Shown piece after piece: positions 1 to 5,021 of a stretch of DNA of 5,021 nt. Source of the DNA: Actinomycetota bacterium (GTDB taxonomy: Bacteria; Actinomycetota; Actinomycetes; Streptosporangiales; Streptosporangiaceae); the NCBI GenBank assembly GCA_003140115.1, contig PLIQ01000368.1, forward strand, positions 1 to 5,021, read 5' to 3'. The notes under the pieces are model-generated. The model was given only the letters and a program-made list of their open reading frames with translations, did no database searches and was not told where the DNA came from. The stretch's first letter is position 1. Each line of letters starts with the position of its first letter. The position numbers and the translations under genes were made by a program.

Positions 1-815
1 CGCCCGGTCCAGGCGGCCATGCTGTGGCGGGTGGTCAGGGTGTCGGGGTGGTCGGGGCCGAGGACGCGCTGCCGGTCGGGCAGCAGCGCGGTGAACAACT
101 CCAGTGCGGCCCCGGCCTTCCCGGCCTCCCCGGTCCAGTCGGCTATGTCGTGGCGAGTGGTCAGGGTGTCAGGGTGGTCGGGGCCTTGCATCCGCTGCCG
201 GTGGGGCAGCAGCGCGGTGAACAATTCCAGTGCGGCGCCGGCGTCCCCGGCTCGCCCGGTCCAGACGGCGATGTTGGAGTGAGTCGTCAGCGTTTCTGGG
301 TGGTTTGGGCCGAGGACGCGTTGCCGGTCGGGCAGCAGCGCGGTGAACAATTCCAGCGCGGCGCGGGCGTCCCCGGCCCGTCCGGTCCAGAACGCGATGT
401 TGTGGCGGGTGTTGAGAGTGCTGCGGTCGTCCGGGCCGAGCACCCGCTCCCGGTCGGGCAGCAAGGCGGTGCACAACTGCAGGGCGGCGCGGGCGCCCCC
501 GGCCCGCCCGGTCCAATGGGCTAGGTTGTGGCGGGTGTTCAGCGTGTCTGGGTGGTCGGGGCCGAGGATCTGGCGCTGGTCTCGCAGCAAGGCGGTGCAC
601 AGCTCCAGGGCGGCGCCGACGTCTCCGGCCTGTCCGGTCCACAGGGCGATGTTGGCTCGGGTGGCCAGAGTGTCAAGGTGGTCGGGACCCAAGATCCGCT
701 GCCGGTCGGGCAGCAAGGCGGTGCACAGCTGCAGTGCGGCGCGGGCGTCCCCGTTCCGCCCGGTCCAGGCGGCGATGTTGTGGCGGGTGGCCAGGGTGTC
801 GGGGTGGTCGGGGCC
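1..815 (-). repeat. Array of 126-bp direct repeats encoding 42-residue TPR units (7 copies, leftmost truncated)
   Basis: Seven units in exact 126-bp register, with no insertion or deletion between them. The Gly codon opening each 'GPDHPDTL' block lies at 813, 687, 561, 435, 309, 183 and 57 (low coordinate, minus-strand codons). Each unit reads roughly GPDHPDTLxTRHNIAxW, then TGRAGDARAALELF, then TALLPDRQRVL. This matches paired-helix TPR repeats of the kind common in actinobacterial STAND proteins. Units 1-3 (from the N-terminal side) carry LC before TALL, and units 4-6 carry LF. Residue 9 runs A, A, N, N, T, T, T, suggesting stepwise duplication. The residue before the invariant Trp changes in almost every unit. 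Further units probably continue left of the window. Confidence 0.95.
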
Positions 816-2813
816 GAGTCCCTGACGGAGACGCTCATACCAGGATTGCCACAGCGCGAGGTTGTCTGCCGGGGTCGGGAGTTCCGGCAGCGCTGACAGC
901 GCCTGATCTGATTGTCCAATGGCCCAGAGGTGCTCACTGCGGCGGTCCCTCGCGTACGCCGCGACAGGCTTACTGTGCGGGCCGGCCTGCTGCAGATCGG
1001 CGAGAGCCTGCACGATCGCAGAGTGAGCTTCGGTGACGGCATCCTCGCCGAAGTGACCGCGCAGGAAGCCGGCGATTAGTTCATGAGCGGGCCCGACCCG
1101 TTCGTCCGGGCTGCCGGCGTCGGCTCTGGCCAGGAGTTCGCCGAGGGCGACCAAGCCATCCCGGACGCGTACGGCCAGAGTCTGGTCGCTGCGATCCTCG
1201 GACCGGAGCGCGGCAACCAGAACCTCTAGCGGCATCCGTGCGCCCACGGGCGCGGCGGCGAGCACCCTGGCCACGTCCGCCACCGGTGCCTGCGGAGCCG
1301 TGGTGACCGCTCCCGAGACGGCCTTCTCAAACACCGGCGCCAAGTCCAGGCCGGGGTACAGTTGCGCGCCAGCGAAGTGGCCCGCCCGGTGCAGACCGCT
1401 GAGCACGCGGGCCCGCAGCCACTCTCCGCCACTCAGCAAGGCGATCCGGTCCCTCGCTTCCGGATCCTCCACCAGGGCTCGCACCAGCTGTTTGACGCCT
1501 TCGGGGTCTCCCTGGGGCAGGTGGATTTGTGAGGCTGCGGGCAGGTCGTCCATGTGGCGCCCGGTCACGATCAGGCCCGCGTGGTGCAGGTTTGTGAAGG
1601 CCTCGAGCAATCGCCGTCGCTGTACGGTGTCGAGTTGCTCGACGGTGTCGACCCCAACCAGGACCCGTGCGTCCTCTGGGTCGAGGTGGGCGAGCGGGCC
1701 GGTGACGACCTGGTCGAACCGAGGTAGTTTCTCTTGCTCGTGAACAGGCGTGGCATTCTGGAACCGTTCGGCGGCCTTGCGGTAAGCCGGGCTCTTGTCC
1801 AACTGCTCAAGCAGCGCCTCGGCCAGGTCCGCCAGGTTGTCACCCAGCCGGGCGGTAACCAGGGCGTCCACGCTTAGGTAATCCCCGGCGCTGCTGCGTC
1901 CGAACGAGGCCAGCAGCGCTGACTTGCCGGTACCGGGGCCACCGGTGATGGCGATCGGCGAGACGCGGTTGGCGAGCAGTCGCATCACGTCCGCGGCGGG
2001 GCCCGGACGCATCTGCCAGTTCCGGGTCAAGCGGGCGACCACGCCCGCCATCTGCGTCCCCGCCAGCGCAGGCCTCAGGTCCGCCGCGCTATTGAGGCCC
2101 AGCCACAAGCCCGCGTCACGGCTGCCGTTCAACGACATGTGTGTCGTCGGCGCAAGGTCCGAGCAATCGGCGGGTGCGACGTCACGCAACCGGTCATGTT
2201 CGTCGTAGGCTCGCAGCTGGGCGTCGGCCGTCTCCGGCGAGCCCTTTTTCAGCAACTCAATTAAAGACCTGCTGAAGCACCCCCGAGATGCCACCTCCTG
2301 AGGGCGGGTGGCCGCGAAAACCTCCACCCTCGCCTGAAGCCCCTGCCATAGAAGCCCGGGAACCGGGTCGGAGATCACAGCACCCGAATGGCAGGCGTCG
2401 ATGACCAACATCAGGCCGTCGACACCCGAATATCGCCGCAGCAATTCCTTGATCCGCTGGCCGATGGGGACAGCGTTCTCGGAATCGATCAGGTCCGGGC
2501 TGGGGGTGTCAGAAGCGACGAGGTAGAAGTCTTGGCCCTCTTTGTGGCCGTGGCCGAGGAAATACACGAATAGCGTCGCCTGCTCCCGGCCAGCGCTGGC
2601 CATGGCCTCATCGAGCGCCTTCACTATCTCCGCCCGAGTGGTGGTGGCCGATGCGGTGAGGAACTCCCGGCCGTCCGGAAGCGCAGGTCGGCATGACCCG
2701 TAGCGGTCGTCCAGAACCACCGCGCGCAGGTCCTGCATCACCTCGGGAACGAAATCGAGCTTACCGAAGCGGTCGTTTTGAACACCGATCAATAGCGCAC
2801 GCCGCTCACCCAT
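1..2813 (-). CDS. Caspase-like protease / STAND NTPase / TPR-repeat protein (NLR-like), C-terminus beyond window
   Basis: Predicted cytosolic signalling or defence protein; 937 codons are visible with no in-frame stop, and the end lies left of the window. Residues 1-165 are a caspase-like (C14) domain: it opens with 'RRALLIGV', has the catalytic His in 'YFLGHGH' (H88) and the catalytic Cys in 'VIDACHSG' (C141), followed by 'ATRPQEVA' and 'CFSRSLIELL', as in bacterial caspase homologues. Residues about 285-480 are a P-loop NTPase: Walker A 'GGPGTGKS' (291-298), Walker B 'VLVGVD' (D389), a sensor-like 'VTGR' (416-419) and 'LSGGEWL' near 460. Residues about 500-666 are helical linker. From residue 667 there are seven 42-residue TPR units, the last cut by the edge. 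The ATG at 2813 is the only plausible start, because an in-frame stop lies at 2823-2825. No Shine-Dalgarno is visible. From the family, one expects NTP-dependent oligomerisation activating the protease; the ligand and protease target are unknown. Domain calls are firm; a defence role is inference. Confidence 0.93.
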   Translation of the reverse strand, partial: MGERRALLIGVQNDRFGKLDFVPEVMQDLRAVVLDDRYGSCRPALPDGREFLTASATTTRAEIVKALDEAMASAGREQATLFVYFLGHGHKEGQDFYLVASDTPSPDLIDSENAVPIGQRIKELLRRYSGVDGLMLVIDACHSGAVISDPVPGLLWQGLQARVEVFAATRPQEVASRGCFSRSLIELLKKGSPETADAQLRAYDEHDRLRDVAPADCSDLAPTTHMSLNGSRDAGLWLGLNSAADLRPALAGTQMAGVVARLTRNWQMRPGPAADVMRLLANRVSPIAITGGPGTGKSALLASFGRSSAGDYLSVDALVTARLGDNLADLAEALLEQLDKSPAYRKAAERFQNATPVHEQEKLPRFDQVVTGPLAHLDPEDARVLVGVDTVEQLDTVQRRRLLEAFTNLHHAGLIVTGRHMDDLPAASQIHLPQGDPEGVKQLVRALVEDPEARDRIALLSGGEWLRARVLSGLHRAGHFAGAQLYPGLDLAPVFEKAVSGAVTTAPQAPVADVARVLAAAPVGARMPLEVLVAALRSEDRSDQTLAVRVRDGLVALGELLARADAGSPDERVGPAHELIAGFLRGHFGEDAVTEAHSAIVQALADLQQAGPHSKPVAAYARDRRSEHLWAIGQSDQALSALPELPTPADNLALWQSWYERLRQGLGPDHPDTLATRHNIAAWTGRNGDARAALQLCTALLPDRQRILGPDHLDTLATRANIALWTGQAGDVGAALELCTALLRDQRQILGPDHPDTLNTRHNLAHWTGRAGGARAALQLCTALLPDRERVLGPDDRSTLNTRHNIAFWTGRAGDARAALELFTALLPDRQRVLGPNHPETLTTHSNIAVWTGRAGDAGAALELFTALLPHRQRMQGPDHPDTLTTRHDIADWTGEAGKAGAALELFTALLPDRQRVLGPDHPDTLTTRHSMAAWTG

Positions 2814-2820
2814 GGAACAG

Positions 2821-2833
2821 TCTTACAGTAAGA
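2821..2833. promoter_or_regulatory. 13-bp palindrome in the divergent promoter region (operator or overlapping -10 elements)
   Basis: TCTTACAGTAAGA is a perfect palindrome about a central A, with 6-bp arms, in the 69-bp space between the two divergent genes. It contains a TAnnnT hexamer on each strand: TACAGT on plus (2824-2829) and TACTGT on minus (2830-2825). It could therefore be a pair of overlapping -10 elements driving both genes, a dimeric repressor site, or both. On the minus strand the hexamer ends 11 nt before the ATG of the caspase gene, which would give a leaderless or nearly leaderless mRNA. I see no convincing -35 box on either side. The palindrome is a direct observation; its role is inferred. 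Confidence 0.45.
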
Positions 2834-2873
2834 AGCGCGACAACGACAGCCTTAACCACTGAGATTGGGTCTT

Positions 2874-2879
2874 GGGGGA
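2874..2879 (+). promoter_or_regulatory. Ribosome binding site deciding the hydrolase start
   Basis: GGGGGA ends 3 nt before the ATG at 2883. The spacing is short, but it is the only purine-rich anti-16S-like stretch near the gene. It supports the ATG at 2883 over the in-frame TTG at 2865, which has only GAGA directly abutting it. Confidence 0.55.
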
Positions 2880-2882
2880 TAC

Positions 2883-3806
2883 ATGGCGCAGATCGTGCTC
2901 ATCCATGGCATCGGACAGCAGGGCAGCACCGTCGAGGAGCAGGAGGCCGAGTGGTTGCCCAGTCTGGTCAAAGGAGTCCTGGCCAGCGGGCACCCGAATG
3001 CGGCAGCCGTGGCCGCGCGGGTGGCGGCCTCGACAGATCGGAACTGCCCGTCCCTGGCCCGGATGGCGTTCTACGGTGACCTGTATCTGCCCACCGACAC
3101 GCAGGGGGACGAGGTGTCAGCGTCGCCCGCGGCCGAGGCCCTGGCCGAGGCGTTCGCCGCCGCCCTGCTGGCGCACGCCGCCGTCAGCGGCGACCCGAGG
3201 CTGGCAGCCGAGGCGGCCAACGCGCTTCGCCAGGCTGATCCCGGTCGCGATGGTGTGCAAGGTCTAGGCGCTCGCGCCCGCGGCGCGGCCGCCGTGCTGG
3301 ATGGCAACGCCTGGTTGACGACGCGCATCTTCGGAGCGCTGCAGAAAGCTAAGCAGGATCTGGTGCAGGTCACTCGATACCTTACTGAGAACGACCTGCG
3401 CGCTACCGTCCAGGCCAGGGTGACGGCGCTCCTGGACGACGACACACAACTCGTTATCGGACACTCACTCGGCACCGTCGTCGCCTGGGAAGCCTGCCAG
3501 GTACTGGGCCGGCCCCTGCCCATCCTGGTCACCCTCGGCAGCCCACTCGGGCTCGACAACGTGGTCTACCCGCGACTCCGCCCCCAACCTCCGACCTGGC
3601 CACCACTCGTCCGTCGGTGGGTAAACGTCGCACATCCAGACGACGTGGTCGCGGTCGAACCTGACCTGGGACGGCTGTTCCCGTCCCCGAACGGTCTGAC
3701 TATCGAGTCCCACACCCCGCGGAGCAAGCACGAGCACCACGCCGCCGCCGGCTACCTCGGCGAGCAGGCCACCGGCCGTGCCGTCGCCGACGCCCTGAGT
3801 GGGTGA
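2883..3806 (+). CDS. Serine alpha/beta-hydrolase (esterase/lipase-like), divergent partner of the caspase-NTPase gene
   Basis: Protein of 307 residues with no signal peptide or membrane segment, so probably cytosolic. It begins directly with the first core strand, 'QIVLIHGIGQQG' (oxyanion HG at residues 8-9). The nucleophile elbow is 'VIGHSLG' with Ser195, followed by 'LVTLGSPLGL' as in PGAP1/DUF676-like and lipase-type hydrolases. Candidate acid residues are D253 or D254 in 'VAHPDDVVAVEPDL', and the candidate catalytic His is among H283, H285 and H286 in 'KHEHHAAAGYLG'. About 185 residues separate the HG and the Ser, more than usual; the insert is Ala-rich and predicted helical, suggesting a cap or regulatory domain. 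The substrate cannot be told; a lipid or other ester is likely. The gene is transcribed away from the caspase-STAND-TPR gene across a shared 69-bp region, which suggests co-regulation. A TTG start at 2865 would add six residues but is less likely. Hydrolase fold is firm; an effector role is inference. Confidence 0.9.
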   Translation: MAQIVLIHGIGQQGSTVEEQEAEWLPSLVKGVLASGHPNAAAVAARVAASTDRNCPSLARMAFYGDLYLPTDTQGDEVSASPAAEALAEAFAAALLAHAAVSGDPRLAAEAANALRQADPGRDGVQGLGARARGAAAVLDGNAWLTTRIFGALQKAKQDLVQVTRYLTENDLRATVQARVTALLDDDTQLVIGHSLGTVVAWEACQVLGRPLPILVTLGSPLGLDNVVYPRLRPQPPTWPPLVRRWVNVAHPDDVVAVEPDLGRLFPSPNGLTIESHTPRSKHEHHAAAGYLGEQATGRAVADALSG

Positions 3807-3852: not shown

Positions 3853-4617
3853 TTACAGGGTCACGCCGGTCAGCGCGGCGCAGTGCCTGAGCAGTCCGTC
3901 CTGAACCGTGAGATCGCGGGCGGCGGGGTGTGGCGTGCGGGGCTTCTGGTGATAGAAGTAGCCGCCCGTCACCCTTGCGTCCGGATCCGGGCTGACGGCC
4001 AGCCATGCCTGGGTCACCGGGCCGAGTGACATGTCATCGGGTGCGCCGGGGCCGCCCATTCTGGTCGGTACCCAGCCAGGCTCAAGCGCGTTCGATAGGA
4101 CATCGGTCCACAGCCGCGCGACGGCGAAGGCGAGCACGACGTCGAACAGCTTGCTGTCGGAGTATGCCTGCGAGCCGTTCCAGTGACGGTGCTCCCACTG
4201 CGGATCGGCCAGGCCGGGATCCCCGCCGCGATGCATGCCCGAGCTGAGGTAGACCAGCCGGGCAGGCCGCTCGATCAGGCCGGTGAGCAGGTACGGAGCG
4301 AGCACGTTGATCGCGAAGACGTGCTCCAGGCCGTCATCGGTGCGGATCCGCGGCTCCCGGTAACCGACCCCGGCATTGTGAATGACCGCGTCGTAAGGAC
4401 CGCCCGCGTTAGCCTGCTCGGCGACCTGCCGCATACCCGCGATACTGGACAGGTCGCCGACGACGACGGCTCTGGCCGCGGGCAGAGCCGCACGTGCGTC
4501 CTCAGCCCTGGCTGCACTGCGGGCATGCAGCGTGACCGAATGCCCATCGTCGGCCAGCAGCCTGGCCGCCATCAGTCCCAGCCCCTCGGTGGAGCCGGTG
4601 ATGAGCACGCGTGACAT
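3853..4617 (-). CDS. Short-chain dehydrogenase/reductase (SDR, retinol-dehydrogenase-like)
   Basis: Complete protein of 254 residues, the normal length for a classical SDR: an NAD(P)(H)-dependent oxidoreductase acting on an alcohol or carbonyl. Visible motifs are the Rossmann glycine motif 'TGSTEGLG' (7-14), 'GDLSS' (54-58), 'HNAGVG' (80-85), Asn104 in 'INVLAP', 'YLSSGMH' with catalytic Ser125/126, and the 'YSDSK' active site (Tyr152, Lys156). Arg33 in 'HARS' after strand 2 hints at NADP preference. The Ser-Tyr spacing of about 26 residues matches the retinol-dehydrogenase/WWOX-like branch rather than FabG-type SDRs. The ATG at 4617 is chosen because AAGGGG lies 7 nt upstream; the TTG at 4623 would sit almost on that site. 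The gene is co-directional with the amidohydrolase upstream (90-bp gap) and convergent with the hydrolase. The substrate is not predictable. Confidence 0.92.
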   Translation of the reverse strand: MSRVLITGSTEGLGLMAARLLADDGHSVTLHARSAARAEDARAALPAARAVVVGDLSSIAGMRQVAEQANAGGPYDAVIHNAGVGYREPRIRTDDGLEHVFAINVLAPYLLTGLIERPARLVYLSSGMHRGGDPGLADPQWEHRHWNGSQAYSDSKLFDVVLAFAVARLWTDVLSNALEPGWVPTRMGGPGAPDDMSLGPVTQAWLAVSPDPDARVTGGYFYHQKPRTPHPAARDLTVQDGLLRHCAALTGVTL

Positions 4618-4624
4618 CAGCAAT

Positions 4625-4707: not shown

Positions 4708-5021
4708 TTAGGCACGCAGATGCTCCCGGCTGGCGTGCATCAGTTCTAGGGCGTGGTCGACATTGTCGCCGGCCAGCTTGCCGTCGCGCTTGACCACGTC
4801 GCCCCCAACGATCACCGTCTCGACGTCGGCGGGACCCGCTCCGAGGACCATGACGGCGACCGGGTCGCCGAACCCGTCGAGGTGGGGAGATCGCATGTCG
4901 ATGACCACGATATCGGCCTGTTTGCCCGGCGTGAGGGTGCCGATCTCGTCTTCAAGGTGCCACACCCGGGCTCCGTCGATGGTGGCCAGGCGCAGCATGT
5001 CCCGCTGGTGCAGGTCCACGG
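4708..5021 (-). CDS. Amidohydrolase C-terminal part (TRZ/ATZ-type deaminase/chlorohydrolase superfamily), N-terminus beyond window
   Basis: The last 103 residues plus stop of a protein whose start lies right of the window; the frame is still open at the edge. It contains the C-terminal hallmark of the metal-dependent amidohydrolase superfamily: 'LRLATIDGARV' then 'IGTLTPGKQADIVVID', the return to the small beta-sandwich domain, followed by 'VETVIVGGDVVKRDGKLAG', the typical final beta-hairpin. This pattern fits the cytosine/guanine deaminase, S-adenosylhomocysteine deaminase and atrazine-chlorohydrolase-like branch. The metal-binding HxH, His and Asp residues lie in the missing part, so substrate class and activity cannot be judged. 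An internal GTG at 5017-5019 is not taken as the start, because the family needs several hundred residues upstream. The gene is co-directional with the downstream SDR and possibly co-transcribed. Confidence 0.88.
   Translation of the reverse strand, partial: VDLHQRDMLRLATIDGARVWHLEDEIGTLTPGKQADIVVIDMRSPHLDGFGDPVAVMVLGAGPADVETVIVGGDVVKRDGKLAGDNVDHALELMHASREHLRA

Follow-up and report, generated by a model that had tools for sequence, protein, structure and literature searches.

The window, a 5,021-nt stretch of DNA from a soil bacterium, contains on its minus strand (2813 to 3) an intact open reading frame (ORF) for a caspase-STAND-TPR protein, the 3′ part of which is truncated by the window edge. 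A gene encoding an alpha/beta-hydrolase is transcribed divergently from it. The following features were assigned:

2094..2813, minus strand: caspase (paracaspase-like) domain, residues 1-240
2550-2552, minus strand: caspase catalytic H88, inside the caspase domain
2391-2393, minus strand: caspase catalytic C141, with D139 adjoining
834..2084, minus strand: Apaf-1-like STAND NTPase with the subsequent helical and winged-helix parts, residues 244-660
1923-1925, minus strand: K297 of the Walker A motif GGPGTGKS (STAND residues 291-298)
3..815, minus strand: kinesin-light-chain-like TPR sensor, 42-aa units starting at residue 667
2814..2882: 69-bp gap between the divergent start codons, as read from the sequence
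2883..3806, plus strand: alpha/beta-hydrolase, lipase/esterase-like, 307 aa, divergent from the caspase gene
3465-3467, 3642-3644 and 3738-3740, plus strand: hydrolase catalytic triad S195, D254 and H286
3093..3122, plus strand: hydrolase loop 1, residues 71-80, with Q74-G75 (low-confidence, pLDDT block mean 61)
3243..3284, plus strand: hydrolase loop 2, residues 121-134, with Q126-G127 and R133 (low-confidence part 121-130, pLDDT mean 51)
3853-4623, minus strand: neighbour gene, short-chain dehydrogenase/reductase
4708-5019, minus strand: C-terminal piece of an amidohydrolase/deaminase-like gene, truncated by the window edge

The initial annotation of this DNA had proposed a C14 caspase, a STAND NTPase and TPR repeats in one protein with intact catalytic and nucleotide-binding motifs, and profiles, alignments and a confident structure model bear out both proposals. 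The His-Cys dyad lies within a caspase fold, as is characteristic of the C14 superfamily, and the NTPase combines a P-loop with the NOD/winged-helix module of STAND proteins; its Walker B motif is likely LVGVD, ending at D389. Domain searches and structure prediction, the checks suggested in that annotation, gave TPR_10/TPR_12 matches in a Pfam scan of the window protein and a model resembling the MALT1 paracaspase, Apaf-1 and TPR solenoids, with Apaf-1 as the top fold match of STAND residues 244-659. The TPR part, which also matches KLC1 (E 1.8e-17), comprises six complete units and one truncated at the window edge, and the complete units share 71-85% DNA identity with one another. Close relatives of the receptor are up to 1232 aa long (P0002). 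From its MALT1-like fold and the Asp before its catalytic Cys, the caspase would be expected to prefer basic residues. A plus-strand frame at 24-524 and others across 3-2813 are long antisense ORFs opposite the GC-rich TPR repeats and look like composition artefacts.

The Pfam scan (E 0.001) found no VMAP-M or VMAP-C domain in the window protein, whose C-terminus extends past the window. The caspase scored 54.2 bits with NF047832, the EACC1 caspase family, where the cut-off is 140, and the score with NF040586, the FxSxx-COOH TPR protein, was 242.3 bits against a cut-off of 300, its strongest stretch being 730-933, within the TPR region. Among the PADLOC models, Avs included, just the ‘caspase’ model (E 2e-11) and, weakly, a methyltransferase model (E 0.08) matched at E 0.1.

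The predicted fold of the hydrolase is lipase/esterase-like and suggests a lipid substrate, its matches being tied among many esterases. A profile search of solved structures with the hydrolase gave nothing significant (best E 0.17). Identity with DDHD phospholipases was considered and dropped: the DDHD domain of Nir2 held Foldseek rank 1 (E 8.4e-3), yet it tied in VIA Z with many lipases, and the DDHD profile was not among the 25 displayed of the 51 matched Pfam families (99 members). The Ser, Asp and His of the triad are conserved in 181, 182 and 182 of 182 hydrolases, and R133 of loop 2 is common (137 of 182). The only replacement of the catalytic Ser was found in P0102, where residue 195 is Leu; its presumed partner, P0002, comes from a contig of equal length (96,905). 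The active sites of both members of the pair are intact in the window. Judging from the sequence, the 69-bp gap probably holds the promoters of both genes, and the short-chain dehydrogenase/reductase gene is probably unrelated to them.

A search with a 20-row hydrolase alignment against one genome per species found at least 383 relatives among the candidates, and the best 80 were taken with flanks of up to 10 kb. A caspase ORF, detected by an iterated caspase profile, adjoins the hydrolase gene in 68 of these 80 loci at a distance of 583 bp or less, and no caspase was found at any other flank position in the best 80 of at least 383 loci. The 12 loci with no adjacent caspase are ten from Nocardia, one from Pseudomonas (L026) and a 3.6-kb contig (L074); among loci on viral contigs, two of eight have an adjacent caspase. 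Within the same best 80, the two genes lie on opposite strands, as in the window, in 19 loci (15 divergent; L008, L009, L013 and L068 convergent) and share a strand, with either gene first, in 49. Since divergent, convergent and same-strand arrangements all retain both partners, the partnership is not tied to gene order. A STAND profile matched in 18 and a TPR profile in 17 loci of the opposite-strand set (L011 has neither, L013 has no TPR match). Eight neighbours, five same-strand and three opposite-strand, were scanned further, revealing WD40 repeats in L028 and L047 and VMAP domains in L067 and L078.

All 71 caspase sequences compared, that of the window among them, retain the catalytic His and Cys as well as an Asp at position −2 from the Cys. 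Distances between caspases correlate with those between hydrolases (Spearman 0.80, N 71, with shared ancestry still included), and none of 2000 permutations gave an equally high value. Loci L008 and L009 are opposite-strand caspase-STAND-TPR/hydrolase pairs on contigs binned as Burkholderiaceae and Bryobacterales, which could reflect either lateral transfer of both genes together or faulty binning. The Pseudomonas contig carries a partial hydrolase relative (L026 10001-10435) that lacks a neighbouring caspase, and a caspase-STAND protein was not found in that genome either. The window caspase-STAND protein gave no hit in 345 genomes from the order to which the L070 genome belongs, but this negative carries no weight, as only three candidates per genome were scored in the 20 rows displayed and a positive control was lacking. 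The two hydrolase loops with a conserved QG had been considered as caspase-cut gates, in the manner of Canu, and this idea was dropped: 10 of 10 isolated hydrolases keep both loops, whereas of the 54 others, 51 of which are paired with a caspase, only 6 do so and 48 are without at least one (either QG or MG being accepted). Because isolated hydrolases keep both loops and most others do not, the QG loops do not signal cleavage.

The ten Nocardia loci in the set of 80 where the hydrolase stands alone come from genomes that, without exception, encode caspase-STAND proteins at other places. Both genes were searched for in 98 Nocardia genomes, with window-clade hydrolases defined by E below 1e-60; absence here means, short of proof, that none was found among up to 23 (hydrolase) or 12 (caspase-STAND) candidates scored per genome. 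The hydrolase was detected in 29 genomes, caspase-STAND in 30, both in 29 and neither in 68 (Fisher p 4.8e-24); thus, caspase-STAND accompanies the window-clade hydrolase in 29 of 29 genomes and occurs in 1 of the 69 others. This cut, set after the list had been viewed, excluded G422, G436 and G442, which have more distant hydrolases only (E 1e-42 to 1e-54); with these three retained (E 1e-30 cut, 32 genomes), the figures are 29 of 32 versus 1 of 66.

Of the 29 genomes, 7 have the two genes side by side. Another 5 carry both on one contig with about 1.5 to 3.2 Mb between them, and the remaining 17, out of the 22 counted as ‘non-adjacent’, place them on different contigs of draft assemblies; less than 1 kb separates the hydrolase from the contig start in G447 and G445, and adjacency is possible there. 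On a midpoint-rooted gyrB tree of the 98 genomes, which includes four partial gyrB sequences and several weakly supported deep branches, the hydrolase requires 8 changes and caspase-STAND 9; all 8 hydrolase changes are matched because the presence patterns are identical except for G393. A model of dependent evolution was preferred to one of independent evolution (LR 62.6, p 8e-13, 4 df; equal root weights, some rates at bounds). The caspase and hydrolase genes are tightly coupled in evolution, also when not adjacent, and the hydrolase is the partner of the caspase, tied to it by adjacency and by co-inheritance without adjacency. A second gyrB-like gene was observed in 12 of the 98 genomes, 11 of which carry caspase-STAND receptors.

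The earlier reading of the protein as TPR sensor, NTPase switch and protease agrees with the folds that were matched (MALT1, Apaf-1 and TPR solenoids), but overlooked the neighbouring hydrolase. It left the caspase to cleave an unspecified cellular protein; because of the adjacency (68/80 loci) and co-inheritance (29/29 Nocardia genomes), the target is likely a dedicated partner, the hydrolase. With modest confidence, we favour a sensor-executioner module of the NLR/apoptosome type, in which the activated caspase would switch on the lipase-like effector. A trigger, perhaps arising from a phage, would be detected by the TPR array, or by the WD40 repeats or VMAP region in other members. The Apaf-1-like STAND part would bind nucleotide and then oligomerise, as is known for Apaf-1, and the oligomer would gather the fused caspase domains, which could activate each other. 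The caspase would then process, possibly by cleavage, or otherwise turn on the partner hydrolase; this lipase-like enzyme may attack membrane lipids, and the cell would be killed or arrested. Membrane-lipid hydrolysis is named in the accessible part of Kaur 2021 (PMC8195603) for alpha/beta-hydrolases that carry a fused death-like domain. The hydrolase is probably the executioner of the caspase-STAND receptor, and the fused receptor with its co-evolving hydrolase suggests a bacterial circuit for cell death that resembles animal ones in design.

The coupling of the genes leaves the direction of action, caspase on hydrolase or the reverse, unset. It is conceivable, though we think it unlikely, that the caspase kills via general cellular proteins and that the hydrolase is a parallel second effector, recruited to the complex uncleaved. 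The failure of the QG loops to track pairing would agree with this, and the accessible text of Kaur 2020 says merely that caspase and hydrolase operate together. A caspase sufficient by itself is harder to reconcile with the presence of the hydrolase in 29 of 30 caspase-STAND-positive Nocardia genomes, and the exceptional genome, G393, has lost the caspase His, as if lone caspase activity were useless. Its receptor (L226) has GYG for GHG with the Cys kept, the only loss of the catalytic His among 35 Nocardia receptor ORFs (truncated ORFs and the hydrolase-linked L098, L099, L105 and L227 included), and G393 is the sole receptor-bearing genome of the 98 where no hydrolase was found. This single case of a divergent protein fits a caspase with the hydrolase as its only useful target, as the module favoured above would have it.

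The pairing of caspase and hydrolase is already known from VMAP systems, where, according to the accessible part of Kaur et al. 2020 (PMC7159879), a gene for an alpha/beta-hydrolase always adjoins the caspase, a related hydrolase recurring in GAP1-N1 systems. The hydrolase profile used here reaches such loci (L067 and L078, with VMAP domains beside the hydrolase). In contrast to VMAP ternary systems, the window protein contains a STAND switch and a TPR sensor of its own and no VMAP domain, and there is no adjacent MoxR/vWA gene among the other genes visible in the window, beyond which one flank lies. The EACC1 two-gene systems (NF047832) have a caspase of the same broad group, and the same part of Kaur et al. 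2020 lists STAND NTPases as one kind of C-terminal fusion partner of these caspases; the window caspase is below the 140-bit cut-off, and the gene visible beside it encodes a hydrolase instead of the EACC1 membrane protein, the far flank lying past the window edge. Canu may offer a model of how the caspase/hydrolase pair works, by analogy: its caspase gene stands beside an effector enzyme, a pro-nuclease, which the caspase activates, as described in the accessible part of Tuck et al. 2025 (PMC12799240). The Canu effector is an MBL-fold nuclease and its prototype caspase has an Ig-like domain (same source), whereas the neighbours visible in the window are the alpha/beta-hydrolase, the short-chain dehydrogenase/reductase and the amidohydrolase, the other flank lying beyond the window.

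The Apaf-1/caspase-9 apoptosome likewise has a STAND switch and a repeat sensor; in the window, sensor, switch and caspase are in one chain and the partner is lipase-like. Bacterial NLR-like proteins (Avs, bNACHT, CARD-NLR) also combine a STAND switch with a repeat sensor, but the window protein fuses a caspase to them and has a lipase-like hydrolase as partner enzyme. Background was also taken from the accessible parts of a Caulobacter CARD-NLR paper (PMC13236601) and a DGR paper (PMC10907252). The caspase-STAND-TPR fusion itself belongs to a known kind; what is new is that a self-contained receptor is inherited together with a hydrolase, even without adjacency, and that several receptors occur per hydrolase. 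No account of either the coupling of caspase-STAND-TPR to an alpha/beta-hydrolase or the sharing of one hydrolase by several receptors was found in the literature searched, which took in few subscription papers and no supplementary tables. Protease-activated effectors of bacteria include gasdermins. They are now known for nucleases as well, according to the accessible part of PMC12799240. If the proposed module is real, a caspase and a lipase-like enzyme, with an Apaf-1-like switch in the same chain as the caspase, would form a further executioner class. Since the two genes can be inherited together without being adjacent, searches for defence systems that are confined to neighbouring genes overlook such circuits.

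The 22 non-adjacent Nocardia genomes have one window-clade hydrolase apiece (G404 and G430 each add one of a distant clade) and together 54 caspase-STAND matches, one of them partial, at 1 to 6 per genome, with two or more in 18 of the 22. One hydrolase per several receptors would also suit a shared signal maker, that is, a hydrolase acting upstream by making or removing a lipid or acyl signal read by the receptors, or by keeping the receptor inactive. We consider this arrangement quite improbable, given that the C-terminal end varies (TPR, WD40, VMAP) while caspase and hydrolase persist. Because the two stay together while the C-terminal ends vary, the caspase is more likely the common interface.

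Alternatively, the module could serve filamentous actinobacteria as a protease switch in regulation or development, rather than as an immune or death system. The conserved flanking genes in seven Amycolatopsis loci of the window type are in line with it; the 25 flank ORFs that recur most widely in the 19 opposite-strand loci are restricted to Amycolatopsis and Kibdelosporangium, apart from one family that occurs also in a Nocardia. A developmental role seems very improbable in view of the patchy presence of the genes (at least 8 changes across the 98 Nocardia genomes), the several divergent receptors per genome and a plasmid copy close to recombinases and a transposase. Among 72,556 plasmid records, 28 match, and two of these were inspected. 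In that of Rhodococcus ruber, the hydrolase lies upstream of a WD40 protein with recombinases and a transposase nearby, and in that of Streptomyces phaeochromogenes its gene is lined up with genes for a hypothetical protein and an AAA ATPase. A search of a phage collection matched no relative.

Returning to the executioner reading, it can be suggested only tentatively that several divergent, scattered caspase-NLRs per genome each switch on one unlinked lipase-like executioner. In G404, six receptors are dispersed along the single large contig, with one window-clade hydrolase; their conservation is 49-73% in the caspase, 33-51% in the NTPase and 16-52% in the C-terminal part, and one of them (L221) gives no TPR signal with the TPR profile. 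Divergent C-terminal parts as a network-specific diversification of sensors were considered and dropped, the caspase being on average the best conserved part in linked relatives from other species too (mean identity 46.8% for caspase, 35.8% for NTPase and 40.3% for TPR; 253 pairs). If it exists, such a receptor network would be a bacterial counterpart of animal caspase execution, and also of the plant networks whose many sensor NLRs depend on a common helper. Many receptors with one executioner would offer a direct genetic handle, as removal of one hydrolase should silence every receptor. A tandem of two caspase-STAND receptors was observed in L217 (513-6896), and comparable tandems occur in L102, L104, L107 and L108.
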